Part shown: one piece after another, positions 4,466 through 35,003 of the stretch | Layout of the letters: each line of letters begins with the position of its first letter | Position numbering within the stretch: the stretch's first letter is position 1 | Origin: Cyanobacteriota bacterium | GTDB lineage: Bacteria; Cyanobacteriota; Cyanobacteriia; CACIAM-69d | Assembly (NCBI GenBank): GCA_022402445.1 | Contig: JAKRSF010000004.1 | Coordinates: 1 to 63,757, forward strand | DNA length: 63,757 nucleotides | Direction of reading: 5' to 3' | Program-made: the position numbers and the translations under genes | The notes under the pieces: generated by a model | Databases searched by the model: none | Told to the model about the DNA's origin: nothing | Seen by the model: only the letters and a program-made list of their open reading frames with translations

Positions 4466-5737
4466 ATGGATATCCTGCCCCCTTCCCCTTCAGACCCCTG
4501 CGATCTCTTTGCCGTCCTGCGGGCGGCGGGGGCTGCCCAGGAATACCTCGCCCGGAGCCGCAATGCCGAGCGCAGTCGGGTGTTGCATCGGGTGGTGGCG
4601 GCCCTGCGGGAGGGGCGTGATGAAATTTTTGAGGCCAATACCCTAGATCTAGAGGCGAGCCGGGAGCGGGATTTGCCCCCGACGGTGCTGGCGTGGCTGA
4701 AGCTGACGCCGGAGCGCTGGCAGCGGACCCTGGCGCTGCTGGAAAGTTTGGGGGATTTGCCCGATCCTATGCGCCAGGGCAACCGCAGTGGCGATCGCGT
4801 CCACGATGCCCAAACCTTTAGTCAACTGATGCCCCTGGGCACCATCGCCCTGGTGTACGAAATGCTGCCGGAGTTGGGGGCGATCGCGGCGGGCATGTGC
4901 CTCAAAACCGCCAACAGCGCCGTCCTCTACGGCAGCCTCGAAGCCCACCACACCAACCAAGCCATCGCGATCGCGATCGCGCGCGGCCTCGAAGATGGCA
5001 ACTTCCCCACCGCCGCCGTCTCCTTCCTCTCCCCCCTAGCGGACCTCTCCTTCCGCGATCTCGTCGTTCAGGATCGCTACCTCAGCCTGGTCATCCCCTA
5101 CGGTCGCCCCAAACTCGTCCGCCAGGTGGTGCAATATGCCACCGTCCCCACCCTCAAGGCCGCCCTGGGCAACTGTTATCTCTATTGGGCCTTGTCGGGG
5201 GAACTAGATACCGTGCGCTGGATGCTCCTCGACAGCCACCGCAATGAACCGGACCCGGTCAACGCGATCGAAAAAGTCCTCATCAACGAGCAGCACAACC
5301 AATCCACCCTGCGGCTCCTGTTTAGCTCCCTGCGCACGGAAGGGTTCGAGCTCAAGGGGGACGCCCCCCTAATGCAGGAATTCCCCGAACTGGCCCCCGT
5401 CCGCGACGACGAATGGCACCAGCCCTACCTCACCCGCACGATCGCCTTCCGGCGCGTCAGTGGTTTGGATGAGGCGATCCGCTGCATCGGCCAGCACAGC
5501 AGCGGCCACGCCGACAGCATCGCCACGGAATCCTACGCGGAAAGCCACCAGTTTTCCCAGCGGGTCGATAGCGCCTCCATCTATGTCAATGCCTCCCCCC
5601 GCTTCCAACGGAGCGTGCGCGGCAGTGCCTCCGTTTTTCTGGGCATGTCGAACCAAAAGGGCTATCGACGCGGCCCCATCGGCCTCGAAAGCCTCACTAC
5701 CCTCAAGCAGGCGATCCAGGGGGAGGGGCCGCCCTAG
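4466..5737 (+). CDS. ProA-like protein (glutamate-5-semialdehyde dehydrogenase paralogue) lacking the catalytic cysteine
   Basis: The 423-residue product aligns along its length with gamma-glutamyl phosphate reductase (ProA), the aldehyde-dehydrogenase-fold enzyme of proline synthesis. Conserved landmarks are VYEMLPELG, DRYLSLVIPYGR, GNCYLY, ASIYVNAS and GPIGLESLTTLK. The usual catalytic segment TCNTVETLL is replaced by PVNAIEKVL, so the nucleophilic Cys is Val265. The neighbouring Cys of the GVCH motif is kept. IYEARPN is also changed. A true reductase would need another nucleophile, so this is either a non-catalytic paralogue or one with altered chemistry. It probably shares a transcript with the upstream small membrane protein. 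Confidence 0.85.
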   Translation: MDILPPSPSDPCDLFAVLRAAGAAQEYLARSRNAERSRVLHRVVAALREGRDEIFEANTLDLEASRERDLPPTVLAWLKLTPERWQRTLALLESLGDLPDPMRQGNRSGDRVHDAQTFSQLMPLGTIALVYEMLPELGAIAAGMCLKTANSAVLYGSLEAHHTNQAIAIAIARGLEDGNFPTAAVSFLSPLADLSFRDLVVQDRYLSLVIPYGRPKLVRQVVQYATVPTLKAALGNCYLYWALSGELDTVRWMLLDSHRNEPDPVNAIEKVLINEQHNQSTLRLLFSSLRTEGFELKGDAPLMQEFPELAPVRDDEWHQPYLTRTIAFRRVSGLDEAIRCIGQHSSGHADSIATESYAESHQFSQRVDSASIYVNASPRFQRSVRGSASVFLGMSNQKGYRRGPIGLESLTTLKQAIQGEGPP

Positions 5738-8428: not shown

Positions 8429-10543
8429 GTGCAACGCCGCTTCGATCCATCGCCGACCCCCTCCGAGCCGCCCCGCCCGAGCCGCTTCCCCGGCTTTGCC
8501 CCTGGGTTCGATCCCGATGAAGTGCCCCGCTGCAATCACTCGAATAATCCCGCCTTCGCCCAGATTTTGGGGGGGCGGCTGCGGCGGCGACAGGTGCTGC
8601 GGGGGGGGCTTGCGGCGGCGGTGACGGTGCTCTTTGGGCCGTCTCGCCAGGGGGGTGGGGGGCCTGAGGTTGCTAGGGCCGCGATCGCGCCGTCCGCCAC
8701 CGCCAGCAATGCCCAGGGGATGCGGCTGGGCTTTAAGGGGGTCCCCGTGAGCAGCGCCGACACCTTCGTGGTGCCCGAGGGCTACACGGCCCGCTGGTTC
8801 ATCCCCCACGGGGAGCCAATTACGGGGAATTTTCCCGCCTACGGCCTCGACAATTCCGGCGCGGATCAGGGGATGCAGGTGGGCAGCCACCACGACGGGA
8901 TGCACTTCTTCCCCCTCAATGGCAGTTCCACCGAGGGGCTGCTGGTGTTGAACCATGAATACATTGAGCCGCGCTTTTTGCACCGGGCGGCCATGGGGCT
9001 GCCCCTACAGTCGGGATCGGTGCCCCTGCGGGAGGATGGCCGCCGCGAGCCGGATCAGGTGCTCAAGGAGATCAATGCCCATGGGGTGACGGTGGTGCGG
9101 GTCCGTCGCCGGGGGGATGGGTCTTGGATGGTGCTGCGCGATCGCCACAACCGCCGCATTACGGGCCAGACGCCCATGGAAATTGGGGGGCCGGTGCGGG
9201 GGAATGAGGCGCTCAAAACCCGCTACAGCCCCGATGGCACCCGCACGCGCGGCACGCTGAACAATTGCGCCCATGGGGTGACCCCCTGGAATACCTATCT
9301 CACCTGTGAGGAAAACTGGGCGCGTTATTTTCTGAACCGATCGAAGGGGGCGGACGGGAAGCCGGATCTGCCGCGCGAGCAACGGCGCTATGAAATGTCT
9401 ACGGGGGAAATGTCCCGCTATGGCTGGGAGCGAGCGGCGGACGGGGCCGATGGGTTTGTGCGCTTTGATGTGACGCCGACGGGCGATCGCGCGATCGCGG
9501 ACTACCGCAACGAGGCCAATGGCTTTGGTTGGATCGTCGAAATCAACCCCTTTGATCCCGACAGCGTGCCCGTCAAGCGCACGGCCCTGGGGCGGTTTGC
9601 CCATGAGGGAGTTGTGTTTCAGCCCGCGATCGAGGGGCAGCCGGTGGTGTGCTACTCCGGCGACGATTCCGAATTTGAATACATCTACAAATACGTGTCC
9701 GCCGAGCCCTACCGCCAGCGCACCGCCAACGGCAGCCTCCTGGATGAGGGGACGCTCTACGTGGCGAAGTTTAATGAAGACGGCACGGGGGAATGGTTGT
9801 CCCTGGTGTTTGGACAGGGGGCTCTGACGGCGGCCAATGGGTTCCGCGATCAGGCGGATGTGCTGCTCAATACGCGGGCGGCGGCGGATGCGGTGGGGGC
9901 GACGAAGATGGATCGGCCCGAGTGGGGGGCGGTGGATCCGGCCACGGGGGCGGTCTATTTCACCTTGACCAATAATGCGGATCGGACGGCGGAACAGGTG
10001 GACGCGGCCAATCCCCGGCCGGGGAATCGGACGGGGCAGATCATCCGCTGGCGGGAGCGGGGGGATGATCCGACGGCGATCGCGTTCGAGTGGGATCTCT
10101 TTCTGCTGGCGGGGCCGCCGGACAATAGCCGCACCCTTGATGGGCGATCGCTCGATGCCAGTAACCACTTTTCGAGCCCCGATGGCCTGTGGTTTGATGC
10201 CCTGGGTCGCCTGTGGATCCAAACGGATATGAGTGAGAGTGTCCTCAACCAGGGGGACCATGCCCAATACGGCAATAACCAAATGCTGGTGGCGGATCCG
10301 CGATCGGGGGAGGTGCGCCGCTTCCTGACGGGGCCGATCGGCCAGGAGATCACGGGGGTGGTGATGACGCCGGACCAGCGCACGATGTTTGTGAATGTGC
10401 AGCATCCGGGGGCCACTACCCCTGGGCCGGAGTTCGCGGCGGGGCAGGTGCGATCGCGCTGGCCGGAGCAGGTGGACAGCCGCTATCCGCGATCGGCAAC
10501 GGTGATCATCACCAAGGATGATGGGGGCATCATCGGCACCTAA
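8429..10543 (+). CDS. phoX: PhoX-family alkaline phosphatase with Tat signal
   Basis: The 704-residue product is a DUF839/PhoX phosphatase, a calcium/iron-dependent exported enzyme that releases phosphate from organic esters. A twin-arginine signal RRRQVLRGGLAAA lies at about residues 52-64, after an N-terminal extension that keeps the GFDPDEVPRCNHSNNP segment typical of the family. LNHEYI and NNCAHGVTPWNTYLTCEENW carry the conserved metal-site Glu and Cys positions. The start is GTG 8429. A three-unit Pho box lies upstream and the sphR-sphS-phoU genes are 5-10 kb away, so induction by phosphate starvation is likely. Confidence 0.93.
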   Translation: MQRRFDPSPTPSEPPRPSRFPGFAPGFDPDEVPRCNHSNNPAFAQILGGRLRRRQVLRGGLAAAVTVLFGPSRQGGGGPEVARAAIAPSATASNAQGMRLGFKGVPVSSADTFVVPEGYTARWFIPHGEPITGNFPAYGLDNSGADQGMQVGSHHDGMHFFPLNGSSTEGLLVLNHEYIEPRFLHRAAMGLPLQSGSVPLREDGRREPDQVLKEINAHGVTVVRVRRRGDGSWMVLRDRHNRRITGQTPMEIGGPVRGNEALKTRYSPDGTRTRGTLNNCAHGVTPWNTYLTCEENWARYFLNRSKGADGKPDLPREQRRYEMSTGEMSRYGWERAADGADGFVRFDVTPTGDRAIADYRNEANGFGWIVEINPFDPDSVPVKRTALGRFAHEGVVFQPAIEGQPVVCYSGDDSEFEYIYKYVSAEPYRQRTANGSLLDEGTLYVAKFNEDGTGEWLSLVFGQGALTAANGFRDQADVLLNTRAAADAVGATKMDRPEWGAVDPATGAVYFTLTNNADRTAEQVDAANPRPGNRTGQIIRWRERGDDPTAIAFEWDLFLLAGPPDNSRTLDGRSLDASNHFSSPDGLWFDALGRLWIQTDMSESVLNQGDHAQYGNNQMLVADPRSGEVRRFLTGPIGQEITGVVMTPDQRTMFVNVQHPGATTPGPEFAAGQVRSRWPEQVDSRYPRSATVIITKDDGGIIGT

Positions 10544-29750: not shown

Positions 29751-29924
29751 TGGGGGGGCGATCGCGGTGCGGGGGCTATTGAATGTTGGCCCTATCCTAA
29801 CGTGTGGTTTTGGAGGTGCGGGTTGGTGGCCCTAGGGGCGATCGAGGTGTGGCGATCGCGATCAAAGAGCCTGGGTGACTGTGCGTCCATAACCCTAGCT
29901 GCGGCAAAAGCCCTACAATTGGGA

Positions 29925-30015
29925 GTGTTGTCCCGCAGGTGCAGGATAACGACGTAATACCGGACTTAGGCCGCAGTTGCTGGACAACACCCATCTGGGG
30001 AAGATTATCCTGCAC
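29925..30015. repeat. Two interleaved inverted repeats
   Basis: GTGTTGTCC (29925-29933) is complementary to GGACAACAC (29982-29990). GTGCAGGATAA (29939-29949) is complementary to TTATCCTGCAC (30005-30015). The order is a-b-a'-b', so both helices can coexist only as a pseudoknot, or they are alternatives. This is unlike a simple transposon end pair. Confidence 0.75.
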
Positions 30016-30039
30016 GTGCGGTCTAATACATAGTTATGC
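29944..30039 (+). other. Degenerate attC-like recombination site at left edge of the island
   Basis: GGATAAC (29944-29950) can pair with GTTATGC (30033-30039) as outer R boxes with one mismatch. TTAGGCCGCA (29966-29975) pairs fully with TGCGGTCTAA (30017-30026), allowing one G-U pair, as inner L boxes. The spacers are unequal (15 and 6 bases), which is atypical. The site shares GTTATGCCGCTTAG with the right-hand site. Confidence 0.35.
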
Positions 30040-30046
30040 CGCTTAG
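30033..30046 (+). repeat. 14-base direct repeat flanking the island, left copy
   Basis: GTTATGCCGCTTAG is identical to 33551-33564. The two copies bracket the AT-rich, HIP1-poor island of about 3.5 kb and coincide with the R boxes of the attC-like sites. Confidence 0.8.
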
Positions 30047-30176
30047 TCCTCGGTTGGGATGCGACCGGAAGGTTGTTTGTCAACGTTCAGGATTAAGTTA
30101 ATGAGAGATGAGTGGAAAGAGGGTGCTTAAAGATGACTGATGGACAAGGGGATTGAATTCAGTCCCATCTTCATTT

Positions 30177-30240
30177 TTTCAACAACATTGGGCATTTTAT
30201 GTGAAGGCAGTTTTTTATCTGTCTTGCTATGTTGTTGAAA
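30177..30240 (+). promoter_or_regulatory. Long hairpin in the leader of the TerB-like gene
   Basis: TTTCAACAACAT (30177-30188) is perfectly complementary to ATGTTGTTGAAA (30229-30240). Inside, GGCAG and CTGTC arms flank a T-run (30211-30216). The hairpin ends 60 bases before the start codon at 30301. It may be a terminator, an operator for a dimeric regulator, or a barrier to read-through. Confidence 0.6.
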
Positions 30241-30300
30241 GCAACTACCGCTTTTTCAATCCAAGAATACAAGATTATCCGTAGCGGAGGATACGTTGTA

Positions 30301-31209
30301 ATGAATGAAACACTCGATCTTGCTAAAGTGTCTGAAAGCGATCGTCTTGCCTTCTATGGTGCGCTCTTTGCGATCGCATTTGCAGACAATTCCATTGATA
30401 AAGAAGAAGTTGAATTGATTTTCGGCATGATGGATTTGGAGGGAATGACTGAATCTGCGAAAAGACAAGTACAGTCGTATATCATTGAACCTCCTTCGTT
30501 GTGGGCGTGTTTAAGATCCTTGGAAGTGGCGGATGAACAGTTACGCTACGGTCTCATGATCAATCTAGTCGATACTGCCTGGGCAAATGATGAACTAGAT
30601 TCAAATGAAGAAGAAGCGATTATTTTGGCACAGCGCGAACTAAAGATCTCAAATGAACAATTAGACGCAATTAAGAAATTTATTCAGAAAGTTCGAGAAA
30701 TTCGGGTGCGTGGATTAGATGATAACTATGCGGCTGATGCTATAAAAACAGCGGCGGCAGGTCTTTCTGCTGTGGGGGTTCCCGTGGCGGCTGTCTGGTT
30801 TTCTGGTTCAGTTATTGGATTGAGTGCAGCAGGAATTACATCTGGGTTAGCTGGTCTTGGAGCACTAATCGGTATTGGAGGGATGATTCCTGGTATTGGC
30901 GTTGCTATTCTTTTAGGTACTGGCATTTTTATGGGTGTTAATGCCCTACTTGATACAGGAGACAAATCCAAGAAGGCACAGTTACAAGCTGAAAAAGAAC
31001 GTAAGGCGCAGCTAGTGATTAAAAACATGCAAGGAGCTATTAATCAGTTAGTAGAGCAAATTGCAGGTCTTCAAGAAAAAGCGATTAACCTTGAGGTTAG
31101 TGCTTCTGATGCAGCAGCAAATCGTGAAGCAATCAGACTATTGACTGAGCGACTGAAGTTTATGCAGCAATCAATTGCCAAGCGGAAGCAAGCCTTTGGA
31201 GCAGCCTAA
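30301..31209 (+). CDS. TerB-like domain protein with hydrophobic core and C-terminal coiled coil
   Basis: The 302-residue product has an N-terminal TerB-like all-helical domain (about residues 12-130) with the repeated acidic pattern ALFAIAFADNSIDKEEVELI and LVDTAWANDELDSNEEEAI. A long Gly/Ala-rich hydrophobic stretch (about 150-230) could form a membrane hairpin, and a coiled coil (about 235-300) ends it. TerB domains occur in tellurite resistance and in predicted phage-defence and stress modules. The ATG at 30301 follows GGAGG. One base separates this stop from the next gene, so they form an operon. Codon use is AT-rich, unlike the flanks. Function is unknown. Confidence 0.75.
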   Translation: MNETLDLAKVSESDRLAFYGALFAIAFADNSIDKEEVELIFGMMDLEGMTESAKRQVQSYIIEPPSLWACLRSLEVADEQLRYGLMINLVDTAWANDELDSNEEEAIILAQRELKISNEQLDAIKKFIQKVREIRVRGLDDNYAADAIKTAAAGLSAVGVPVAAVWFSGSVIGLSAAGITSGLAGLGALIGIGGMIPGIGVAILLGTGIFMGVNALLDTGDKSKKAQLQAEKERKAQLVIKNMQGAINQLVEQIAGLQEKAINLEVSASDAAANREAIRLLTERLKFMQQSIAKRKQAFGAA

Positions 31210-31210
31210 G

Positions 31211-32698
31211 ATGCTTTCTGACAAAGCTATTGTGGAGCTTGGCATTGCTTTACAAGCCCAAAATCGTGTTCTCCAAGAACTTGAATTAGCAGTTTCTGAA
31301 ATAGATGTTAGCTTGACAGGATCTGCCCAAAAGCTCTCTAGTGTTAGTGAAACAACACATCAACTTAGAGAACTTGAAGCTTTAATGGATGAGCTTGAGG
31401 CTGATCAGGGTTGGATTGAGGAAGAAGACTTTGGCGATTTCGATCCAAACCAAATTTCAAGTCTCTATGAAAATCGCCAGCAATCTGTTTTTCAAGAACT
31501 AACTAAAATTGGGTTCAAAGATTGGGATAGCTTTGTAAGGCAATGCCAAATCTATGTGTTATCTCAGGGAGGCGATCCGTTAGCTCCCTATGAGGCTTTT
31601 TTAACAGAAGCAGATCTGAAAACACTTCAGGCGGAATCCTATGGTGCTCAATATAAGTGGGATAAATGGGATTACATTTTTGTTGGGGCTACTGGGGTTC
31701 TTGCGTCCTTAACTGACTATCTCCTAGTTAAAATTCCTACGACATTAACAACAGGCAAATATGCTGGGCAAGCAGGTAGCCCCCTAACTGAGTGGCTGAA
31801 GAGCTATGACACTACAAAGTCAAACGATTGGTTTGCTCAGTGGGCAGAAAACCTTTCTGAAACTTGTAAGGTTCCTTATGACTCAATGAGCTACGCAGGT
31901 GCAGGCGGAGTTGAACGTATTGCTGGAATGTTTCCTAAATCCCATCGCTTTCAATCTTTGGGGCATGATCCAGTTCTCGGCTTTGTTTTTGGTGTTTTAG
32001 ATATTATGCGAGGAACGATTAGTGGTTTCTCCTACGATAATCTGACCCATACCCATACATGGATGCAAGGAACCGTTTGGTCTAATCTTGAACCTGTGGG
32101 ACTCATTGAAGCAATCCTTCGCCAACTTGGACACCTGATTTCTGACGTGGCTACACCAATGGGTTTACCAGCACCCTTCATGACGTTAATTCAGGGGATT
32201 AATATTGGTAGCTTTGGAGAGAAGGGGCGCACAGTTGGAGAGATTGCTCGATGGATGTATTTAAATGGATACGATTTCAGGCATTTTCTAGTTTCTGGAA
32301 TTACACCTGCGGTTATCGAAATTGCTCTTCGTGCCTATATTATGTTGAGGCATTATTCTGAATATGGGGAAACGAAATTTGATCTCGCCTCTCATCCAAA
32401 GTACCGAACAATGCTACTCATGGCTCATGGTATTGCAACGTTAGGGAATGCTGGCAAAATTGTATTGATGCAGGGCAATCCCTTAGCAATTAACTACGCA
32501 GAGTGGATAGCTTTTATTCGGTATCTTATTCCAAGCATCAAATATTGGGTGTTTGACCAACACCAGTTACGAATGGAACATCTGGAGCACATTAACGAAA
32601 CTGGATGGGATCAGCTATTGCAGAGTAGCGATCAATTACTTACAACTGTTACAAAACTTGACTCTTCAAAGATCATTCTGGGAACGACACAGGATTAG
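31211..32698 (+). CDS. Uncharacterised 495-residue protein paired with the TerB-like protein
   Basis: I recall similar proteins annotated only as hypothetical, found scattered in bacteria, but no function. The N-terminus (about residues 1-75) is coiled coil, followed by an acidic stretch (EADQGWIEEEDFGDFD). The middle and C-terminal parts contain several hydrophobic helices, for example YIFVGATGVLASLTDYLLV, and the ordered segments SLGHDPVLGFVFGVLDI, LPAPFMTLIQGINIGSFG and LNGYDFRHFLVSGITPAV. These Gly-His-Asp and Arg-His positions look conserved-family-like. It starts one base after the TerB-like gene, so the two products probably act together, perhaps at the membrane. Confidence 0.7.
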   Translation: MLSDKAIVELGIALQAQNRVLQELELAVSEIDVSLTGSAQKLSSVSETTHQLRELEALMDELEADQGWIEEEDFGDFDPNQISSLYENRQQSVFQELTKIGFKDWDSFVRQCQIYVLSQGGDPLAPYEAFLTEADLKTLQAESYGAQYKWDKWDYIFVGATGVLASLTDYLLVKIPTTLTTGKYAGQAGSPLTEWLKSYDTTKSNDWFAQWAENLSETCKVPYDSMSYAGAGGVERIAGMFPKSHRFQSLGHDPVLGFVFGVLDIMRGTISGFSYDNLTHTHTWMQGTVWSNLEPVGLIEAILRQLGHLISDVATPMGLPAPFMTLIQGINIGSFGEKGRTVGEIARWMYLNGYDFRHFLVSGITPAVIEIALRAYIMLRHYSEYGETKFDLASHPKYRTMLLMAHGIATLGNAGKIVLMQGNPLAINYAEWIAFIRYLIPSIKYWVFDQHQLRMEHLEHINETGWDQLLQSSDQLLTTVTKLDSSKIILGTTQD

Positions 32699-32766
32699 TA
32701 GGTATAATTAGAGCAATGCTTTCAGTTTGAAGCCTGCGCTAATAGTCGCTATATGGAGATTGAATT

Positions 32767-33096
32767 GTGAGTCTTTTTTTGGAGTGCGAATCCCCACCAC
32801 TTAGGGAAGATGAAACAGGAGCAATTCGGATTGGTGATTCAAGGGTTTTGCTAGAACTGGTGATCCGAGCATTCCAGGATGGTGCTTCTCCAGAAACCAT
32901 TGTGCAAAGATATTCAACGCTTTCTCTATCTGACCTTTACATCACGATTGGTTATTATCTTCGGCATCAGCAAGAAATAGAATCTTATCTGACCGAGCGC
33001 GAACAGTTAGCAGAATCCGTTCGTCAACGTTTTTCAGTAATTCAGCCTGACCTGAGCTTGATTCGATCCAGACTTTTAGCACAACAAACTCTCTGA
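32767..33096 (+). CDS. DUF433 antitoxin-like protein
   Basis: The 109-residue product carries the DUF433 pattern IRIGDSRVLLELVIRAFQDGASPETIVQRYSTLSLSDLY split over residues 20-58, which is a short winged helix-turn-helix. DUF433 proteins usually precede DUF5615 PIN-like proteins and are taken to be antitoxins and autorepressors. The start is GTG at 32767 behind TGGAG. The stop is eight bases before the DUF5615 gene, so they form one operon. GC content is low, as in the rest of the island. Confidence 0.85.
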   Translation: MSLFLECESPPLREDETGAIRIGDSRVLLELVIRAFQDGASPETIVQRYSTLSLSDLYITIGYYLRHQQEIESYLTEREQLAESVRQRFSVIQPDLSLIRSRLLAQQTL

Positions 33097-33104
33097 GCCT
33101 TGTT

Positions 33105-33455
33105 ATGCTGAGGCTACTGAGTGATGAAAATTTTAATGGCGACATTGTGCGAGGATTGTTTCTTCGCCAACCGACTCTTGACTTATTACGTGTTCAGGAT
33201 GTTGGGTTGCGAGAAGTGGATGACCCAGCAATTCTAGATTGGACAGCAAGCAATGGGCGCATTCTCTTAACTCACGATCGTGCAACAATGCCAGACTTTG
33301 CTTATGAGCGATTATCTCAAGGACAGCAAATGTCGGGTTTGTTTGTGATTAATGATCGGATGCCAGTTAGGCAGGTAATCGATGAATTGCTACTACTGAA
33401 TGATTGTAGTGAACAAGACGAGTGGAAAGGCATTGTCCTGTACTTGCCCTTGTAA
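33105..33455 (+). CDS. DUF5615 PIN-like toxin candidate
   Basis: The 116-residue product has the Mut7-C/PIN-like DUF5615 signature: LLSDENFNGDIVRGL at the N-terminus, DPAILDWTASNGRILLTHDRATMP in the centre (acidic active-site residues), and a C-terminal ILYLPL-like end (GIVLYLPL). These proteins are presumed RNases neutralised by the adjacent DUF433 protein. It is full length for the family. The gene ends 17 bases before the attC-like site, the usual position of a cassette gene relative to its recombination site. Confidence 0.85.
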   Translation: MLRLLSDENFNGDIVRGLFLRQPTLDLLRVQDVGLREVDDPAILDWTASNGRILLTHDRATMPDFAYERLSQGQQMSGLFVINDRMPVRQVIDELLLLNDCSEQDEWKGIVLYLPL

Positions 33456-33472
33456 ACTGAGTAGCGATCGCG

Positions 33473-33557
33473 GCATAACAAATCGATGGAGCCGACCGCC
33501 GAGAGGTTATCTCTAAGCATCAAAGGAATCTGCGGCGGCTCATCTCAGCCGTTATGC
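33473..33557 (+). other. Integron-type attC site candidate
   Basis: The outer R boxes GCATAAC (33473-33479) and GTTATGC (33551-33557) are fully complementary. Inner L boxes are GAGCCG-A-CCGC (33489-33499) and GCGG-CGGCTC (33532-33541), pairing along ten bases and leaving one extrahelical A at 33495. Spacers between boxes are nine bases on both sides. Complementary R and L boxes with an unpaired base in one L arm are the hallmarks of attC sites recognised by IntI. The central loop contains a small GAGA/TCTC hairpin. No integrase gene is in the window. Confidence 0.65.
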
Positions 33558-33564
33558 CGCTTAG
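33551..33564 (+). repeat. 14-base direct repeat flanking the island, right copy
   Basis: GTTATGCCGCTTAG is identical to 30033-30046 and forms the right edge of the island. Past this point GC content and HIP1 frequency return to the level of the rest of the window. Confidence 0.8.
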
Positions 33565-33722
33565 CCCCCTTCAGACCTCACCGAAATTCCCTTGCAGCAT
33601 GGGCGATCGCGCTGATCTTGGGTGGCCGGTGCGTTCGGGATGAATAGCGATCGCGTTGACCTAAGCCGTACCGAACGCACCCTACCGGTGTTTGATTGAT
33701 TATTGAATTGTCATTGAATCGA

Positions 33723-35003
33723 TCAATCCGCCGGACCCACCGCCGCCGCCGCCGCCGCGATCGCGATCGCCCCGTGGGTCCAGTGGGTACCGCCCTGGAA
33801 ATAGGCCACATAGGGTTCCCGCAGCGGCCCATCCGCCGACAGTTCCGACGTACTGCCCTCAATGAACGTCCCCCCCGCCATCACCACCTGACTTTCATAA
33901 CCGGGCATCGCATCCGCGATCGGCTCCACATAGGAATCAATCGGCGACCACTGCTGCACCGCCTTACAAAAGTCCAGCACCTTCCGAGCGCTGCCCAACT
34001 TAATCGCCTGAATAATGTCCCGGCGCGGCGCGATCGGAGCCGGATTCACCCCATAGCCCAAATCCGCAAACACCTGCGCCGCCAAATGGTTACATTTCAT
34101 CGCCTCCCCCACCATCTGCGGCGCAAGGAATAGCCCCTGAAACAGCAGCCGGTGTTGATCAAACGCCGCCCCGCCCGCCGAACCAATCCCCGGAGCCGTC
34201 AACCGACAGGCCGCCCGCTCCACGCAGTCCGCCCGACCGGCCACATAGCCGCCCGCCGTGACGATCGTGCCGCCCGGATTCTTGATCAGCGAGCCCGCCA
34301 TCAGATCCGCCCCCACCGCCGTCGGTTCGCGATCTTCGACGAACTCCCCATAGCAGTTATCCACAAAACAAAGGGTGTTCGGGTTTTGCCCCTTCACGAT
34401 CGCGATAATCCGCTCAATTTCCGCGATCGCCAAACTCGGCCGCCAGTCATAGCCACACGATCGCTGGATCGTCACCACCTTCGTTTCCGGACGGATCGCC
34501 GTCGCCAGCCCATCCCAATCAATCGTCCCATCCGCCAACAGGGGCAACTCCCGATAGGACACCCCAAACTCGCGCAGGGAACCGCTGCCCGAGCCACGGG
34601 TGCCGATCACCTCTTCGAGCGTGTCATAGGGAGCCCCCACCACCGACAGCAGCTCATCCCCCGGCCGCAGCAGCCCAAACAGACCGCACGCGATCGCATG
34701 GGTACCCGACACAAACTGCACCCGCACCGCCGCCGCCTCAGCCCCCATCACCCGCGCAAACACGCGATCGAGCGCATCCCGGCCCGCGTCATCGTGGCCG
34801 TAGCCCGACACCCCCGCAAAATGGTGCGCCCCCACCCGCTCCGCCCGGAACGCCTCCAGCACACGCCGCAAATTCCCCTGCACCTGCCGGTCGATCGCCG
34901 CAAACTGGGGCTGCAACGCCGCGATCGCGATCGCCACCCGCTCCTCCGCCCCATCCCCCAACGGCAACGCTACACTAGGCAAAGGCCCAGCGGCCCCAGA
35001 CAT
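33723..35003 (-). CDS. Methionine gamma-lyase family protein (aluminium-resistance family)
   Basis: The roughly 426-residue product is a PLP enzyme of the Met_gamma_lyase/aluminium-resistance family. Landmarks are HFAGVSGYGHDDAGRDALD, QFVSGTHAI, RSCGYDWRPS, CFVDNCYGEFVE and the PLP lysine segment AGSLIKNPGGT. The C-terminus FQGGTHWTHGAIAIA is typical. The family is related to Cys/Met metabolism enzymes; the real substrate is not established. The ATG at 35003 is used; an in-frame TTG at 35069 would add 22 low-complexity residues. It is divergent from the desaturase gene. Confidence 0.88.
   Translation of the reverse strand: MSGAAGPLPSVALPLGDGAEERVAIAIAALQPQFAAIDRQVQGNLRRVLEAFRAERVGAHHFAGVSGYGHDDAGRDALDRVFARVMGAEAAAVRVQFVSGTHAIACGLFGLLRPGDELLSVVGAPYDTLEEVIGTRGSGSGSLREFGVSYRELPLLADGTIDWDGLATAIRPETKVVTIQRSCGYDWRPSLAIAEIERIIAIVKGQNPNTLCFVDNCYGEFVEDREPTAVGADLMAGSLIKNPGGTIVTAGGYVAGRADCVERAACRLTAPGIGSAGGAAFDQHRLLFQGLFLAPQMVGEAMKCNHLAAQVFADLGYGVNPAPIAPRRDIIQAIKLGSARKVLDFCKAVQQWSPIDSYVEPIADAMPGYESQVVMAGGTFIEGSTSELSADGPLREPYVAYFQGGTHWTHGAIAIAAAAAAVGPAD

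Follow-up and report, generated by a model that had tools for sequence, protein, structure and literature searches.

The hairpin at 33470-33560 of the window, the 63,757-nucleotide stretch of cyanobacterial contig JAKRSF010000004.1 that was analysed, is a genuine attC site by its architecture, by two covariance models, by covariation and by a class-wide association with intI. Very probably it belongs to a chromosomal integron with one cassette and a lost integrase. The following features were assigned at this locus.

About 29846-29890, minus strand: intI stub, a start codon plus about 14 codons (MDAQSPRLFDRDRH), assigned by homology to the remnant on contig C12 of the same genome
29891-30036, plus strand: attI site, defined by homology and ending at the core GTTATGC (30033-30039)
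30033-30046, plus strand: left core-site repeat GTTATGCCGCTTAG, the 5' boundary of the cassette
30034-33551, plus strand: gene cassette, 3518 bp, 41-45% GC
30229-31209, plus strand: BnzA-like gene (Bunzi defence, TerB-like domain; PADLOC BnzA, 4.8e-43)
31175-32698, plus strand: BnzB-like gene (Bunzi defence; PADLOC BnzB, 1.4e-82)
32767-33096, plus strand: DUF433 protein, antitoxin-like (PF04255, 7.9e-6, over the cut-off)
33105-33455, plus strand: DUF5615 protein, PIN-like toxin candidate (PF18480, 5.2e-11)
33470-33560, plus strand: attC site (from sequence, single-stranded DNA folding, covariance models R1 and R2, and covariation), with boxes R'' 33473-33479, L'' 33485-33499, L' 33532-33544 and R' 33551-33557

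The left arm of the attC consists of GCGGCATAAC (33470-33479), a spacer and the L'' box GAT-g-GAGCCG-a-CCGC (33485-33499); after a 32-nt loop, the right arm continues with GCGGCGGCTCATC (33532-33544), a second spacer and GTTATGCCGC (33551-33560). The R boxes GCATAAC and GTTATGC are fully complementary, as a preliminary description of this DNA had stated, and lie inside ten perfect pairs with the AAC end and GTT start of attC R boxes. The L boxes and spacers also conform to attC sites, but their details differ from that description, which had given ten L-box pairs, A33495 as the single extrahelical base and symmetrical nine-base spacers. There are 13 L-box pairs, with two unpaired bases (G33488 and A33495) located six pairs apart on the L'' arm and three pairs (GAT/ATC) outside G33488, and the unpaired spacers are 5 nt (AAATC) and 6 nt (TCAGCC). 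aadA-type attC sites have the identical layout of L-box pairs, extrahelical bases and spacers. As single-stranded DNA, each strand of the site folds better than dinucleotide shuffles, with a z score of -2.62; 4/200 and 1/200 shuffles folded equally well for the two strands.

A BLAST search of 59 cyanobacterial genomes with the 91-nt site returned near full-length copies of 83-91% identity in members of several other families. In an alignment of 34 such sites from which the window site was left out, 80 L-box cells were changed on both sides, compared with a shuffled mean of 38, the covariation score was 0.323 versus 0.127 after shuffling, and 87% of L-box cells were paired, versus 26-51% with the partners slid. 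The A at the position of A33495 is invariant across these 34 sites. A covariance model built from this alignment and thus trained without the window (R1) scored the window at 92.9 bits (E 1.7e-22) on the plus strand and at 12.9 bits on the minus strand. Because the R1 training sites had been found through their similarity to the window site, a second model (R2) was built from 11 attCs adjoining intI genes. A single array (G038:C20) supplied nine of the 11, and all had been located with R1, so R2 is not fully independent. R2 scored the window attC at 59 bits (E 7e-14). The G038 array contains an intI of 320 aa, and its attCs all lie on the same strand, 0.5-1.4 kb apart.

The association with integrases was evaluated in 194 genomes of the class, using R1 attCs at E 1e-6 and intI genes or fragments at E 1e-20. 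R1 attCs were present in 138 genomes and intI or a fragment in 94, 64 of which had an intI over the cut-off; 88 genomes contained both, 50 attC only, 6 intI only and 50 neither. Co-occurrence has an odds ratio of 14.7 (Fisher p 3e-12, uncorrected for kinship of the genomes). The attC-type recombination site of the preliminary description is thus upheld by its architecture, by two covariance models built here, by covariation in 34 relatives and by the association with intI.

The cassette was delimited in three ways. GC content falls to 41-45% from about 30000 to 33500, compared with mostly 60-68% outside; the 14 bases of GTTATGCCGCTTAG at 30033-30046 recur identically at 33551-33564, one copy at each island edge; and a scan of 28-33.6 kb for the 5' end expected of a cassette, the reverse complement of its own R'' box, had its two best matches at 30033 and at R' itself. 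These results place the cassette at 30034-33551 (3518 bp). The flanking genes are 3974 bp apart in the window versus 197-388 bp in three genomes of another genus of the same family (G002, G004 and G005), which points either to an insertion in the window or to a loss in those genomes; the stub and attI are also part of the DNA that they are missing. A member of another cyanobacterial family (G045) carries the cassette from 30255 to 33555 at 94.3% nucleotide identity, with proteins 92-96% identical to those of the window, and the homology ends at the attC core (the left end is a contig end in G045). The methionine gamma-lyase beside the island has just 77-80% identity within the window's own family. 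The left part of the cassette is also present in G013, at 86-90% identity; that copy begins at the same core behind its own attI-like DNA, beside which no intI stub was found, and is without the DUF433/DUF5615 genes and the attC. The core repeats, the empty locus in relatives and the G045 copy agree with an attC that forms the 3' end of a mobile cassette.

Right after the core, a conserved leader of about 60 nt, roughly GTTAgaCCGCTtAGtctTCGGTtGGGAc...ACC-AAGgTTATCTGT, recurs in many cyanobacterial cassettes that have little else in common (window 30033-30110; L054:10839, L106:5892(-), L063:9210(-) and L071:17045(-)). Four genomes have a solo attC in which one and the same repeat-like sequence (about GGCGTAGCCTCTCCGTAGGAGTT) takes the place of the R'' box and spacer, with an identical junction (L064:4884(-), L065:10492(-), L046:1568(-) and L070:10054(-)).

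The cassette encodes a predicted Bunzi-like phage-defence module and a putative DUF433/DUF5615 toxin-antitoxin-type pair, both functions being assigned from protein profiles. As in the Bunzi system, both components are adjacent and are matched by PADLOC models, but the BnzA match is partial, spanning profile positions 150-446 of 544 with positions 1-149 unmatched and an uncertain start codon, and the genes lie inside an attC cassette. The BnzA-like protein also has a weak TerB match, slightly below the Pfam cut-off. The DUF433 and DUF5615 genes are adjacent, each with a Pfam match over the cut-off, as in toxin-antitoxin pairs of this type; in the G039 array, too, an attC follows such a pair. 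BnzB does not appear to be generally cassette-borne, since R1 found no attC near the BnzB relatives (33-73% identity) at the tested loci of named genomes. The cassette may have arisen by fusion, with loss of an inner attC, because 3.5 kb and four genes are long for one cassette when compared with the spacing in the G038 array.

The left edge of the cassette is an attI directly behind an intI, the arrangement of a complete integron, but only the stub of the gene is present at the locus. The segment 29846-30036 is 93% identical to G000:C12:118050-118250 in the same genome; used as a query, the latter also has 73-76% identity to segments at C13:86802 and C12:2564. The stub peptide MDAQSPRLFDRDRH matches the start of the C12 intI remnant MDVPQPPKLLDRVRQ. 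At C12:2564, 39 aa of the remnant match TIGR02249 positions 1-39 within a 70-aa frame. attI and intI 5' remnants are present at four loci of the genome. The remnant series, MDVPQPPKLLDRVRQAIRF... (C12), MDAQPPRLFDRDRQTARFRHLSR (second C12 locus), a C13 copy with a stop and a frameshift, and MDAQSPRLFDRDRH (window), suggests a single gene that decay has shortened to varying extents. Homologues of the window attI lie next to the intI remnants of C12 and C13 and, without intI, in G004 and G005; the window attI ends CGGTCTAATACATA/GTTA and resembles attIs adjoining intI in G011 and G042. No intact intI of the window attI's own subtype was recovered, and no match in the genome reached the TIGR02249 cut-off (265 bits). 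The lack of an integrase in the preliminary description, which had proposed looking for intI elsewhere, therefore holds for intact genes throughout the genome, although the window does contain the 14-codon stub.

A PF13495 and TIGR02249 match on C9 (G000:C9:227884-228700, about 304 aa, with relatives in G001-G005) is a XerC-like tyrosine recombinase without the extra segment found in IntIs, and was rejected as an IntI. In the intI-adjacent attIs of G011, G042 and G020, core-like units (such as GTTATGCCGAATCATTCTGCCTA) are directly repeated between intI and the insertion point, at L109 about 9600-9850, at L107 about 5000-5183 and at L103 upstream of 2345. A self-mobilising intI-attI unit was considered for the three G011 copies of 94-96% identity. 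One of their sides is bounded by the attI core, but the other has no sharp common end, and such a unit is therefore not supported.

Searching the genome with R1 identified six attCs (the window, C11:444793, C13:88161, C12:119029, C12:6849 and C9:81054), with scores ranging from 92.9 down to 29.4 bits; the same six were scored by R2, the C9 site at only E 0.066. A loose R-box pattern was uninformative genome-wide, with 76 matches per strand versus 208 for a reversed control. All six attCs lie at the edge of a low-GC island, and five of the six islands (the exception being C9) start with an attI or attI-like site. At C12:118k and on C11, the cassette's own R'' predicts a start that is present there with a single mismatch. 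The island contents include, on C11, methylase and restriction enzyme genes; at C12:118k, a T5orf172 protein; and at C12:2.7k, a cytochrome c peroxidase-like gene. The window attC, earlier taken as a lone site or part of an integrase-less cluster, is accordingly the only attC in the window and without an integrase, but it is one of six in the genome and closes a cassette that has attI and the stub 3.5 kb upstream.

The C11 attI sits behind a transketolase-like gene. An attI recurs behind this gene at the orthologous place in the sister genus, followed by different DNA: G005 has the gene and an attI without intI, and G002 the gene and the 5' half of the attI, each with downstream DNA that differs from C11, while G004 has a 3' fragment of the gene, an attI, another methylase gene of restriction-modification type and an attC. 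Next to the intI-less attI, the transketolase-like gene has part of its 3' end duplicated downstream or elsewhere, which makes the site look like a point of repeated insertion (L197, G002:C12, 6547-9078; L193, G005:C56, 6796-7893; L192, G004:C53, 8686-8991).

A decayed single-cassette integron would have arisen as follows. As suggested by the activity of its family, an IntI would once have inserted the cassette, as a 3.5-kb circle, at the adjacent attI through attI x attC recombination. In this reaction the bottom strand of attC is folded, and the cut within GTTATGC falls between G and TT. Such recombination would leave a core-site copy at each cassette end, at 30033 and 33551. The cassette would have brought the predicted defence module and toxin-antitoxin-type pair, whose expression, like the past activity of IntI, we infer. 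The intI gene would afterwards have decayed to the 14-codon stub, and the cassette would therefore now be fixed unless IntI were supplied in trans.

The attC could also be all that is left of a longer array, a degraded attC cluster from which the other cassettes were deleted. R' is followed by TTATGCCGCTTAG, which starts the window cassette and is a common start among other cyanobacterial cassettes, and this may thus be the trace of a second cassette. Against such an origin, neither R1 nor R2 detected a second attC within the window, and the five other loci of the genome also carry one attC each. We regard an array remnant as possible but doubtful; it is compatible with, not opposed to, the single-cassette decayed integron. 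The intI-less attIs, such as those behind the transketolase-like gene, may have been loaded in trans or may simply have lost their intI. It is rather unlikely that the intI-less attIs represent dispersed, inherited docking sites in this cyanobacterial family, each taking one (often defence-related) cassette with IntI acting in trans.

It is highly improbable that IntI put a solitary cassette off-target, into a secondary site other than attI (attG), at a locus lacking an integron platform. A single attC without a neighbouring intI is the SALIN pattern (PMC12690207), and the intergenic locus is empty in relatives; however, an attG is neither attI nor attC, and the left edge here consists of an attI and intI stub that are 93% identical to another copy in the genome and belong to the DNA that the relatives are without, so that this origin is already contradicted. 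The stable inverted repeat directly 3' of the toxin-antitoxin operon has a negligible chance of being an ordinary transcription terminator or other hairpin, which is likewise already contradicted by the absence of any terminator-like site (a G+C-rich stem with a T run) at 33300-33750 and of any Rfam family match to the hairpin, by the conserved extrahelical bases and attC-type spacers, by a model match confined to one strand and by the same-strand arrays beside intI in relatives. The preliminary description had named a low model score and a terminator without cassette association as grounds for abandoning the attC assignment; the scores are high, no terminator-like site is present and the hairpin lies at cassette ends.

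Several components of this locus are already known separately: intI in Cyanobacteria (PMC2426708), where a taxon-specific attC covariance model has been published (PMC8352920), frequent intI inactivation (PMC3108266), and attC sites without integrase, termed CALIN, or SALIN if there is a single attC (PMC9024848, PMC12690207). Defence cassettes have been described in Vibrio chromosomal integrons and in mobile integrons (Darracq 2025; Kieffer 2025; reviewed in PMC12409362), and that review characterises integron defence systems as streamlined to small size. The locus resembles cyanobacterial chromosomal integrons in its attC architecture, its attI, its TIGR02249-family intI (here a remnant) and its cassettes in one orientation, but it lacks a functional intI, each attI has a single large cassette of several genes, and there are several attI units dispersed over the chromosome. 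It has the single attC and lack of a nearby intI gene of SALIN/CALIN elements, but the opposite cassette end still has attI and an intI stub. Phage-defence genes form an integron cassette as in Vibrio and mobile integrons, but here a two-gene Bunzi-like module and a toxin-antitoxin-type pair are predicted within one 3.5-kb cassette. Several dispersed intI-less attI-cassette-attC units in one genome appear undescribed, no description having been found in the open-access literature.

The window locus presents integron decay in readable form, with the platform stub, the docking site and the stranded cassette all remaining; in addition, the site is empty in relatives, and another family has a nearly identical cassette. 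Of the 138 attC-bearing genomes sampled in the class, 50 gave no match to intI at E 1e-20, and many loci of this kind would therefore escape surveys in which intI or a cluster of attCs is required. The cassette suggests that, in Cyanobacteria, defence modules of several genes move as one cassette. The locus also raises the question of whether attI sites that outlive their integrase still take up cassettes; if intI-less attIs are indeed loaded in trans, the loss of intI would not end cassette exchange.
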